Shown here piece by piece: positions 20,931 to 24,160 of a stretch of DNA of 64,000 nt. The translations under genes and the position numbers were made by a program. The DNA is from Metabacillus sp. KUDC1714 (GTDB lineage Bacteria > Bacillota > Bacilli > Bacillales > Bacillaceae): NCBI RefSeq assembly GCF_014217835.1, contig NZ_CP055263.1, positions 5,273,501 to 5,337,500 on the forward strand, in the 5' to 3' direction. Within the stretch, counting starts at the first letter, position 1, and each line of letters starts with the position of its first letter. Under the pieces are notes generated by a model. That model was not told where the DNA came from and searched no databases. It saw only the letters and a list, made by a program, of their open reading frames with translations.

Positions 20931-21126
20931 ATTAGTTAATTTTGTTTCTTTTTCTAAGTAATAATAACTCTAACAAAATTAATCGAACTATTCTTCTACA
21001 AGCTCATTAGATGAGCTAAAAAGATTAAAAATAGTAAAACAGTATCTCTACTAATTGATAAATCAAGAAATTGTTTTACTGATAATATTTTTAAAAAAGG
21101 ATAACTTATTTATAGGAGGTGCTTAT

Positions 21127-21654
21127 ATGAAGGACAGGACAATATTGAACTTATTGACTACATTTGGAATAGGTGCAAGTATAATTTTTTTATTACGAAG
21201 AAAAGGCGACTTAAAGGACTGGTTTCTTATTTATTTTATTAAAACTTTAGTTTCGACTGTATTTGATGGACCAGTAATAAAGACAAAATATTTGCAATAT
21301 CCACATCGCTATCTCCCTAAATTGTTCGACTCAAACATTGTGTTTTTATATATATTATTTCCTTTATCATGTGTCATGTATAATCAATTTACTTATAATA
21401 TGAAAACGTTAAAAACTATCGTAAGTGTTTTCCTTTTTAGCGGACCAATGACACTTTTTGAGAATTGGCTTGAAAAGAATACCAATTTAGTGAAATATAA
21501 TAAGGGTTGGAATAGCTATATTACATTAATTGTTCTTTCGTTTACTTTTTTGCTTGTTAAAGGATGCATTGAGGGAATTCGTTTCTTAGATAAAAATATT
21601 CACAATCCCTCAATTGCTACAGAAAAAAAGAATCTGCAAAATAAGTTTGAATAG
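21127..21654 (+). CDS. CBO0543 family membrane protein
   Basis: 175 aa from the ATG at 21127, chosen for ATAGGAGGTGCTTAT; the frame stays open 72 nt further upstream without a ribosome site. It has four to five hydrophobic spans and the conserved GDLKDWFLIYFIKT near the N-terminus, plus YPHRYLPKLFDSNIVFLY and GPMTLFENWLEK, typical of the CBO0543 group found in Bacillus and Clostridium. Function unknown. Its natural terminator downstream is split by an IS element. Confidence 0.75.
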   Translation: MKDRTILNLLTTFGIGASIIFLLRRKGDLKDWFLIYFIKTLVSTVFDGPVIKTKYLQYPHRYLPKLFDSNIVFLYILFPLSCVMYNQFTYNMKTLKTIVSVFLFSGPMTLFENWLEKNTNLVKYNKGWNSYITLIVLSFTFLLVKGCIEGIRFLDKNIHNPSIATEKKNLQNKFE

Positions 21655-21672: not shown

Positions 21673-21698
21673 AATCAATAAAAAACACCTATCAAATT
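21673..21698 (+). terminator. Left arm of a bidirectional terminator, split by the IS
   Basis: These 26 nt are perfectly complementary to 22993-23018. Without the IS and one CTAC copy, the two arms would form a 26-bp stem with a CTAC tetraloop and A6/T6 runs, a textbook terminator shared by the convergent genes ending at 21654 (+) and 23063 (-). Confidence 0.85.
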
Positions 21699-21731
21699 CT
21701 ACTGAAGTGACCCCATAAAGTGAGACAAGGA

Positions 21732-21785
21732 AAAAACACCTCCTGAGTCGTATTTAATCAATATGATTCTAGCGGAGGTGTTTTT
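21732..21785 (+). promoter_or_regulatory. IS leader hairpin that traps the orfA ribosome site
   Basis: AAAAACACCTCC (21732-21743) is the exact complement of GGAGGTGTTTTT (21774-21785). The right arm contains the orfA Shine-Dalgarno, 3 nt before the ATG region, and ends in a T-run. Transcripts entering from outside would fold it, terminating or hiding the ribosome site, a known protective device in several ISs. Confidence 0.7.
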
Positions 21786-21788
21786 CTT

Positions 21789-22109
21789 ATGGGTACAAGA
21801 ATTCCTTATCCAGAGGAAATTAAATGGAAAGCTGTTGAGATGAAACAATCAGGAATATCTACAAAGGAAATAATGGAGACATTAGGTATTAAAAATAAGA
21901 CCCAAGTAGAAACATGGGTTAGATGGTATAAGAATGGGGAAACACATCGATTTGTTCAACCAGTAGGTAAGCAATACACATATGGAAAAGGTCCAGGTGA
22001 ATTAAGTGAGTTGGAGAAGCTACAGATTAATAATAGACAATTACAAATGCAGCTAGAAATCTTAAAAAAGTACAAAGAAATCGAGAGGAGTTGGAGCCGA
22101 GAGTCGTAA
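21789..22109 (+). CDS. IS3-family transposase OrfA
   Basis: 106 aa. The N-terminal helix-turn-helix of IS3 OrfA is clear: YPEEIKWKAVEMKQSGISTKEIMETLGIK followed by the WVRWYKNGE recognition region, then a leucine-rich coiled coil (LEKLQINNRQLQMQLEILKK). It binds the terminal inverted repeats. The stop lies 19 nt inside the orfB open frame. A slippery heptamer near its end directs fusion with OrfB. Its ribosome site lies inside an IS hairpin. Confidence 0.95.
   Translation: MGTRIPYPEEIKWKAVEMKQSGISTKEIMETLGIKNKTQVETWVRWYKNGETHRFVQPVGKQYTYGKGPGELSELEKLQINNRQLQMQLEILKKYKEIERSWSRES
22064..22070 (+). other. Programmed -1 frameshift site
   Basis: A-AAA-AAG sits in the X-XXY-YYZ register of the orfA frame (22064 is a third codon position). 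A -1 shift here gives ...LKK-VQRNREELEPRVV..., joining orfA to orfB without a stop. This is the standard way IS3 elements make OrfAB transposase. A GAGAGGAG lies 14 nt downstream. Confidence 0.85.
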
Positions 22110-22951
22110 TTAAATTGGTAAACGAGTTATCTCCTTACTATAAAATTATTGATATACTGGCTGTATTAGAGGTTCCAAAGGCTACCTATTACCGTTGGAG
22201 GAAGAAATACTCTTCTGCTGAGCCAACTTCTATCGAAAAGATAATTATACAAGTATGTAAGGCTCATTATTTTCGTTATGGACATAGAAAAATTAAAGCT
22301 GTTTTAAAGAGAAAATTCAATATCACCTTAAACCGTAAAACGGTCCAAAAGAATATGCAGAAATATGATTTACAATGCCAAGTGAAGGTGAAACGCCAAA
22401 ACTATATTAATGGGGTGAGTAATATCGTTGTGAAAAATCTCCTCCAGCAAAGGTTTACGGCAACTAAACCAAATGAAAAATGGGTTACAGACATTACCTA
22501 TTTACCGTATGGATCAACTATGTTGTATCTATCAACAATTATAGACCTATATAATAACGAGATCGTAGCTTATACCATCGGTACTAACCAGGATGTTTCT
22601 TTGGTAATAGATACATTGAAGTCAGCTATTGTAAAACGGAATCCACAAGAAGTCATTCTACACAGTGATCAGGGCTCTGTATACACATCATACGAATATC
22701 AAAACTTAGCTAAAGAAAAAGGCATTATCACAAGCATGTCCCGCAAAGGAAACTGCCATGATAATGCCGTCATCGAATCCTTTCACTCCTCGCTAAAGTC
22801 GGAAGGATTCAACACTCTAAGAAGAGCATCTATATCTAATTCTAAAGTAGTACAAATCGTAAATCAATACATGTATTTTTATAATCAAATACGAATTCAG
22901 GCAAAACTAAACTACCAGTCTCCAATAGAGTTTGGAGAACAGGTAGCTTAG
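22091..22951 (+). CDS. IS3-family transposase OrfB (catalytic part)
   Basis: 286 aa when counted from the TTG at 22091, but mainly expressed as an OrfAB fusion. An HTH_21-type region (YGHRKIKAVLKRKFN) is followed by the rve integrase core with the DDE triad: Asp in WVTDITYLP, Asp in LHSDQGSVYTS and Glu in NAVIESFHSSLKSEG, with the usual 35-residue spacing of the last two by eye. No stop or frameshift interrupts the frame, so the enzyme is probably active. The SD-like GAGAGGAG before the TTG might also give some free OrfB. Confidence 0.95.
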   Translation: MEPRVVIKLVNELSPYYKIIDILAVLEVPKATYYRWRKKYSSAEPTSIEKIIIQVCKAHYFRYGHRKIKAVLKRKFNITLNRKTVQKNMQKYDLQCQVKVKRQNYINGVSNIVVKNLLQQRFTATKPNEKWVTDITYLPYGSTMLYLSTIIDLYNNEIVAYTIGTNQDVSLVIDTLKSAIVKRNPQEVILHSDQGSVYTSYEYQNLAKEKGIITSMSRKGNCHDNAVIESFHSSLKSEGFNTLRRASISNSKVVQIVNQYMYFYNQIRIQAKLNYQSPIEFGEQVA

Positions 22952-22992
22952 GTGTTTTTTCTAAGTCTCATTTAGATGGGTCAGTTCACTAC

Positions 22993-23018
22993 AATTTGAT
23001 AGGTGTTTTTTATTGATT
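22993..23018 (-). terminator. Right arm of the IS-split terminator
   Basis: Perfect complement of 21673-21698, ending 44 nt before the stop of the Gfo/Idh/MocA operon (23063, minus). It was the terminator of that sugar operon as well; the IS now keeps the arms 1.29 kb apart. Confidence 0.85.
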
Positions 23019-23062: not shown

Positions 23063-24160
23063 TTAAGAACTTATACTAAACTCAGGAATGCTAATATTCA
23101 CTTCACTGCCTTGTTCTGAAGAGCGTAAAATCCCATCAATAATCGCTTGATTAATCACGATTTGATCTCCAGGAATTGGTGCAGGTTTTCCTTCCTTGAT
23201 TGAAACAACAAAATCACGTACCTTCTCATAGAAAATATTGATTTTATGTTCTTGGACTGGAATACTTGTTTCCACATGGTGACCTTTTATGTCATGGAAT
23301 AAGTTAATGGACCCAATTCCACCATCCCAAACTCCACTCCATGGTCCACTTCCAGCAGGTGTTAGCTTCAAGCCAGCGTCAGAACCGAGGAACAATGTTG
23401 GTCCTAGAGAATCCATATGCATTGCCCAAGATATTTTAAAGTTTAAAACTATTCCACCTTCCAAACGAATCATCGCTACGCCAAAATCCTCGACTTCAAA
23501 TTTATCCGCTTCACGATGATAGATTGGATTTGTTCCAAAATGATTGGAAGTATAGGCCGAAACTGTTAAAGGCCTTGGATAGCCAAGTGCATTTAGAGCC
23601 AAGTCTAAAGAATAACAGCCGATATCCGCCATTGCTCCAGCACCTGCTAAACTTTTATTAATAAAAGTGCCTCCTGGCATCCCACGTCGTCTTCCTCCAC
23701 CTGTTTGAACATAATAAACATTCCCTAATTGTCCAGACTGAACAATTTCTTTTACTGCTTGCATATTAGGATCATATCTTGGTTGGAAACCTACTGAAAG
23801 TATTTTACTAGTCTTGTGAGAGGCTTCTACCATTTCAATTGCCTGATCAAGAGTAACTGCCATCGGCTTTTCAACTAGAACATGTTTTCCGGCATATAGA
23901 GAATCAATACTAGTGTTATGGTGTGCAACATTTGGTGTACATACACTAACACCATCTATATCCATTTTAAGTAGCTCGAGATGATCATCAAACCCTTTGG
24001 CATCTTTTAAATCCAATTGTTCAATAAATTGATCTGCTTTACCTGGGATCACATCAGCAACAGCTACAATTTTGACATCAGGCATTTCCTTATAGGCTCT
24101 AACATGTGCAGCTGCAATACCCCCACTGCCAATAATTCCTATGTTAATCGTATTGGACAT
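23063..24160 (-). CDS. Gfo/Idh/MocA family sugar oxidoreductase (1), Tyr-type
   Basis: 365 aa. It has an N-terminal Rossmann fold (INIGIIGSGGIAAAH, GxGxxG) for NAD(P), the family EKP motif with the catalytic Lys (LVEKPMAV), and a GGGRRRGMPGG substrate loop. At the usual catalytic His position of the second motif it reads ADIGCYSLDLALN, with Tyr as in glucose-fructose oxidoreductase. It is the last gene of the operon that starts at 30590. By position it could be the final reductase or a dehydrogenase acting on a sugar hydroxyl (often C3). Substrate unknown. TTTGGAGGTACGAAT precedes the ATG. Confidence 0.88.
   Translation of the reverse strand: MSNTINIGIIGSGGIAAAHVRAYKEMPDVKIVAVADVIPGKADQFIEQLDLKDAKGFDDHLELLKMDIDGVSVCTPNVAHHNTSIDSLYAGKHVLVEKPMAVTLDQAIEMVEASHKTSKILSVGFQPRYDPNMQAVKEIVQSGQLGNVYYVQTGGGRRRGMPGGTFINKSLAGAGAMADIGCYSLDLALNALGYPRPLTVSAYTSNHFGTNPIYHREADKFEVEDFGVAMIRLEGGIVLNFKISWAMHMDSLGPTLFLGSDAGLKLTPAGSGPWSGVWDGGIGSINLFHDIKGHHVETSIPVQEHKINIFYEKVRDFVVSIKEGKPAPIPGDQIVINQAIIDGILRSSEQGSEVNISIPEFSISS

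Follow-up and report, generated by a model that had tools for sequence, protein, structure and literature searches.

An IS3-family element of the IS150 lineage at the centre of terminator-like palindromes, with terminator-like hairpins at its own ends

An insertion sequence (IS) of the IS150 lineage was found at the exact centre of a 26-bp palindrome between two convergent genes of Metabacillus sp. KUDC1714. The best explanation, and in our judgement quite a probable one, is that this IS3-family element selects strong dyads, inserts at their centre and brings inward-facing, terminator-like ends with it. It is built on observations of the exact site, an empty site in the same genus, statistical targeting across the lineage and conserved hairpins at the element ends; in this species those hairpins would be expected to terminate transcription.

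Materials and methods

The window, that is, the whole stretch of DNA analysed, comprised 64,000 nucleotides of contig NZ_CP055263.1 (assembly GCF_014217835.1, positions 5,273,501 to 5,337,500, forward strand). Relatives of the element were taken from named genomes, the genus, plasmids and a sample of IS3 transposases from across the order, in which the best-scoring matches came first and which was not random. From 223 loci with OrfB located, 106 unique sites with a duplication, an end motif and a plausible length were accepted, 98 of them from the window's lineage and 8 from a sister lineage. Duplicates, loci cut by contig ends, loci without a duplication and those with unclear ends were left out, as were the fragments L003-L007 of the KUDC1714 genome, which were too broken. 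The 56 elements compared by OrfB tree derive from 97 of the 98 copies, the reading frame of L002 being too short for the tree. Outside the window's order, 49 loci served as a hold-out, and 17 were accepted.

Ends of the elements were set by tip motifs and duplications without use of the dyad; the motifs were drawn up after the ends and flanks had been viewed. The first end-finding approaches were dropped, having picked internal repeats for many elements. An ungapped dyad score was replaced by folding because it missed bulged hairpins; at looser end-calling, with many ends doubtful, a score of at least 7 had been reached by 59 of the 113 copies that had a duplication and by 8 of the 59 that had none, and in a set of 40 copies 29 had scored at least 8. 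For the count of elements with hairpins at both ends, elements were collapsed by their first 60 nt, which left 65 in the window's lineage.

Results

The element (21703..22988, plus strand) is 1286 bp long, has TGA...TCA ends, a motif common to its relatives, and shows the TG...CA tips, terminal inverted repeats and short target duplication of the IS3 family. OrfA (21789..22109, plus strand; ORF list and profile match) carries a helix-turn-helix. OrfB (22091..22951, plus strand) contains the rve/DDE integrase core (PF00665 at 2.3e-27) and matches the IS3 model NF033516 at 5.1e-85, over the model cut-off. The two frames overlap in the -1 frame, and a likely slippery site, A6G (22064..22070, plus strand), lies near the overlap; in elements of the IS3 family such a site would serve a -1 frameshift into OrfB.

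The left arm of the target dyad with its A-run (21673..21698) and the right arm with its T-run (22993..23018) are complementary at 26 of 26 positions, and CTAC stands at both edges of the element (21699..21702 and 22989..22992), its left copy being the loop of the empty site. These positions bear out the preliminary description, made from the sequence alone, which had placed the element in the exact 4-nt loop of a 26-bp palindrome. When the element and one CTAC were removed, the joined site formed a single hairpin of -30.9 kcal/mol, with a 26-bp stem and a loop of 4 nt, and none of 200 shuffles folded as well. Its dyad score was 26, while only 9 of 8000 random positions reached 10.

The dyad sits between two genes that both read towards it. 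On the left is a CBO0543-family membrane protein gene (21127..21654, plus strand; NF041644 at 7.3e-30 for the translation of 21121-21651), for which the ATG at 21127 was taken as the start, the ORF list having a TTG at 21055 instead. On the right is a Gfo/Idh/MocA-family oxidoreductase gene (23063..24160, minus strand; PF01408 at 4.3e-27). An A-run borders the palindrome on one side and a T-run on the opposite side, the arrangement expected of a shared bidirectional terminator.

The empty site that the preliminary description had proposed to look for was found in another genome of the genus, G012, where an uninterrupted palindrome, AAAACACTTATCAAATT-ACTAGAC-AATTTGATAAGTGTTTT, with a 7-nt loop begins at 10108 on contig C54. 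The oxidoreductase gene that ends beside the target in the window does so here too; the window's left neighbour matches a different G012 contig, so that synteny holds on the oxidoreductase side only. That homologous site carries the dyad without any IS, and the arms vary from copy to copy; both facts make it scarcely credible that the palindrome belongs to the element or was made by it, an idea suggested by AAAAAACACC-like stretches that occur in the IS ends as they do in the target arm. The target was also considered as a member of a large REP-like repeat, which was ruled out by the uninterrupted matches to its core dyad pattern: G012 has two and the KUDC1714 genome one, and neither G005 nor G013 has any. 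The few terminator-like palindromes that have the core ATCAAATT...AATTTGAT in common with the target in the window lie at G000 C1:1422431, G012 C44:110806 and G012 C54:10123.

G012 also holds copies of nearly the same IS (98-99% identity over the matched pieces), broken at contig ends; the flanks read there comprise four on the left, with A-runs, and two on the right, with T-runs. In the KUDC1714 genome a second full copy, 75% identical to that in the window, also lies within a strong hairpin, and the remaining five matches are fragments.

Across the lineage, the centre of the duplication fell in the loop of a hairpin at -12 kcal/mol or better in 76 of 98 unique copies, against 57 of 1470 random positions, 87 of 1161 sites with right flanks swapped between copies, and none of 8 copies from the sister IS3 lineage (TGGA..TAGTAT-like ends). 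The preliminary description had suggested that insertion was directed and had named, as support to look for, a majority of copies in loops of terminator palindromes; this count and the two full KUDC1714 copies agree with it, and copies lacking dyad symmetry, which it had named as contrary evidence, amount to no more than the 22 of 98 that failed the hairpin test. By eye, about two-thirds of 21 weak copies resembled terminators or palindromes hit off-centre, an unscored impression. Counted by element, 45 of 56 had at least one hairpin site and none of 6 in the sister lineage did, the lineages being separated at 100/100 in the OrfB tree; inside the lineage the targeting label switches often along the tree. 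In the hold-out, 10 of the 17 accepted copies passed at -12 or better and 6 of 17 passed the strict form described below. Neither of the two accepted copies of G209 passed, and one of two in G230 did, with a 16-nt loop.

The insertions are centred on the dyad. In 64 of 77 copies with a hairpin at -6 or better, the loop centre lay no more than 1 nt from the duplication centre. When the loop centre had to lie within 1 nt (strict form), 63 of 98 copies passed, compared with 86 of 5880 random positions. The duplication was 3 nt long in 74 of the 98 copies and 4 nt in 24. At the 76 hairpin sites it equalled the folded loop in 22, was smaller in 49 and larger in 5; the earlier proposal that the duplication is the whole loop thus stands for CTAC in the window and not as a general rule.

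Only two of the 98 sites lay inside an ORF of at least 300 nt (4 could not be classed), and genes that read towards a site ended a median of 44 nt from it (132 such gene ends). This is the pattern that free insertion would leave if only harmless spots such as terminators persisted. We consider survivorship of this kind very unlikely: strict hits were found at just 26 of 1900 random positions outside ORFs, to insert at a dyad centre is no safer than to insert next to it, and the sister IS3 lineage sampled from the same order had no hairpin site among 8 copies.

Arm sequences vary between copies, and neither the duplication nor its neighbouring bases have a strong base consensus; dyad symmetry is therefore the common feature of the targets. 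An A-run on the left and a T-run on the right accompanied 63 of the 76 hairpin sites, 3 and 3 sites had a run on one side, and 7 had neither. Correspondingly, A was enriched 10-12 nt to the left and T 10-12 nt to the right of the duplication, as would be seen if the A-run/T-run motif itself were recognised and the dyad were incidental. We rate the chances of that reading as slight: swapping right halves keeps the runs, yet strict hits fell from 63 of 98 to 71 of 1454, and palindromes without runs are used too. The 7 run-less sites are GC-rich REP-like palindromes. Several genomes of the order have recurrent palindromes of this type, matching or resembling GAGCCTCCTCG...GGGGTCTC, and IS150 relatives whose ends are of the GCACCC or GCCCCC type have inserted in them time and again (L179, L182, L188, L225-L227, L229, L230, L233-L237, L103, L104, L107).

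Since 69 of the 76 hairpin sites had a terminator-type A- or T-run on one side or both, the transposase might follow RNA hairpins, paused polymerase or termination complexes instead of DNA dyads. Such transcription-coupled targeting is judged unlikely, though it deserves a hearing. One-sided sites split 3:3 for orientation of the IS and 7 hairpin sites have neither run, both being small numbers. At equal folding energy, targets surpassed background hairpins in Watson-Crick dyad quality, the background being drawn from 60 of the 98 loci and its hairpins not all being real terminators. Both runs were present in 63 of 69 targets and 112 of 408 background hairpins (all energies; each energy band agrees). 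This same-scoring background replaced a first one, in which 183 of 532 terminator-like hairpins had both runs and 293 had a single run. The comparison favours symmetry of DNA over strength of an RNA hairpin.

What the transposase recognises in DNA is, we infer, a transient cruciform or an unwound dyad centre. OrfB matched retroviral integrases weakly (PFV integrase at 8.1e-4), and for an enzyme of the retroviral-integrase kind, a dyad centre that is flexible or unwound would be a fitting preferred target. A fully extruded cruciform would hold its two loops far apart and would be a poor fit to concerted transfer.

Terminator-like hairpins were found at both ends of the element in the window, facing inward. 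The left one (21729..21785, plus strand; folding and alignment) is followed by a T-run; the segment 21728-21790 folds at -26.2 kcal/mol (z -6.8). This hairpin contains a ribosome-binding-like GGAGG ahead of OrfA, is flanked by an A-run and a T-run and is retained in eight aligned sequences. The right one is antisense with a T-rich tail (22902..22948, minus strand); the segment 22890-22990 folds on that strand at -27.7 kcal/mol (z -4.2) with a terminator score of -24.6 (L001), and it is a predicted inward terminator-like site for transcripts of the sugar operon. A simple consensus terminator scan of the element, which admits loops of 3-8 only, gave no site at the left or right end.

Inward end hairpins at -15 or better occurred in 49 of 56 elements on the left and 51 of 56 on the right, against 5 of 336 and 13 of 336 shuffles, respectively, and 0 of 6 at each end in the sister lineage. 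Both ends reached -12 or better in all 44 elements with a two-run terminator target, in 14 of 17 other elements of the lineage, in 1 of 4 that hit only run-less palindromes, and in none of 13 of the sister lineage, where some ends are doubtful; the contrast with the sister lineage is one between two clades. The hairpins thus mark the lineage more than a single target, and within the lineage they track target choice loosely, being present at both ends in 14 of 17 elements that have no two-run target.

In the GCACCC-ended clade (L097, L102, L105, L112, L113) the terminal inverted repeat on the left doubles as the 5' arm of the end hairpin; its reverse complement comes very soon after it, along with T-rich sequence. 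The tip of the IS in this clade is half of a terminator-like palindrome.

The preliminary description had also predicted that the insertion removes the shared terminator and causes read-through. This is doubtful, because the element has terminator-like hairpins facing both neighbours and one bidirectional terminator may have been exchanged for two new ones. From these predicted structures, termination just inside each end seems likelier than read-through in this species.

Discussion

In the proposed mechanism, an IS3 element of the IS150 lineage would pick DNA with strong dyad symmetry and insert at its centre, duplicating 3-4 bp that lie inside the hairpin loop or extend around it. Such dyads in these genomes mostly resemble bidirectional intrinsic terminators near gene ends, which is why genes are seldom broken. 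The inward end hairpins of the element probably end the transcripts of both neighbours, keep read-in away from the transposase gene and take the place of the terminator that was split. We lean, by a narrow margin of belief, towards the wider claim that the whole IS150-related lineage combines sequence-independent targeting of dyad centres (in practice bidirectional terminators) with inward terminators that rebuild termination, so that each insertion would be a near-neutral exchange of terminators.

Hairpin-directed insertion is already known from IS1397/ISKpn1 and IS1272. IS1397 and ISKpn1, likewise of the IS3 family, insert in palindromic units (REP sequences) of enterobacteria. They recognise one repeated palindrome family, whereas the targets of the window's lineage have freely varying arms without strong consensus and are mostly terminator-like. 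IS1272 and TnSha1 (IS1182 family) are, in the available parts of PMC4923244 and PMC5678879, described as inserting into hairpins without sequence consensus, as the window's lineage does, and 5 of 7 TnSha1 sites were confirmed there as terminators by RNA-seq. These elements differ in family, OrfB being an IS3 transposase by NF033516, and, as described there, cut in the stem and delete part or all of the hairpin without target duplication. The target in the window has kept both arms intact and gained a CTAC duplication; the relatives were chosen for having a duplication and have no independent bearing on this point. A loop-only duplication is drawn in the available part of PMC5678879 as possible pathway (c) for IS1272-type insertion.

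The layout of terminators at both ends matches, by description, that of an ISSau8-like element of Staphylococcus aureus subsp. anaerobius. According to the available part of PMC8171923, reporter assays on this element confirmed a 5'-end terminator that works in both directions and an antisense one at the 3' end, and 86 of its 87 copies are intergenic; in that part neither the IS family nor targets described as terminators were found stated. In the open-licence PMC literature, no report was found of terminator-loop targeting by IS150-type elements, nor of loop-centred, duplication-making targeting across the IS150-related lineage together with built-in terminators; the available parts of PMC6211511 and PMC5771124 contained nothing on hairpin targets.

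If correct, the proposed mechanism would explain the low-harm spread of a large IS group in Bacillota: the element would aim at a structure that stands beside many operons and supply its own replacement, and terminator-like ends could make an insertion almost harmless to neighbouring genes. It would also provide, in tractable form, a retrovirus-integrase-like transposase that responds to the symmetry of DNA and not to its sequence. In annotation, caution is advisable with terminators and with convergent gene pairs that an IS has stripped of their terminator.

Assignment of the element to the IS150 group, as first proposed, was confirmed by L130, an ISKpn8-type copy with 94.7% DNA identity to K-12 IS150, which falls among the 56 elements of the lineage in the OrfB tree. 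L130 itself fails the hairpin test and is without a left-end terminator-like hairpin; its right end scores -20.9. For Escherichia coli IS150/ISKpn8, 11 of 40 listed places showed four flank forms: two beside hokA (5 and 4 places), one in gltL and one beside kup. By eye, hairpins lay nearby at the 11 places, with the insertion off-centre. The element thus adjoins hokA in 9 of the 11 places (L315-L325), in two flank forms, a recurrence for which common descent or preference for a hairpin may be the reason.

A second IS3-family element, with TGATCTGTATCC ends, has three copies in the KUDC1714 genome (L134, the same as L310; L136; and L135, the same as L311). Two of the three lie in terminator-like hairpins by eye, and one of these two passes the fold test. 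A Bacillus-type copy of the window's IS (L051) was found in a record named Flavobacteriaceae bacterium, which is possibly a contaminated assembly.
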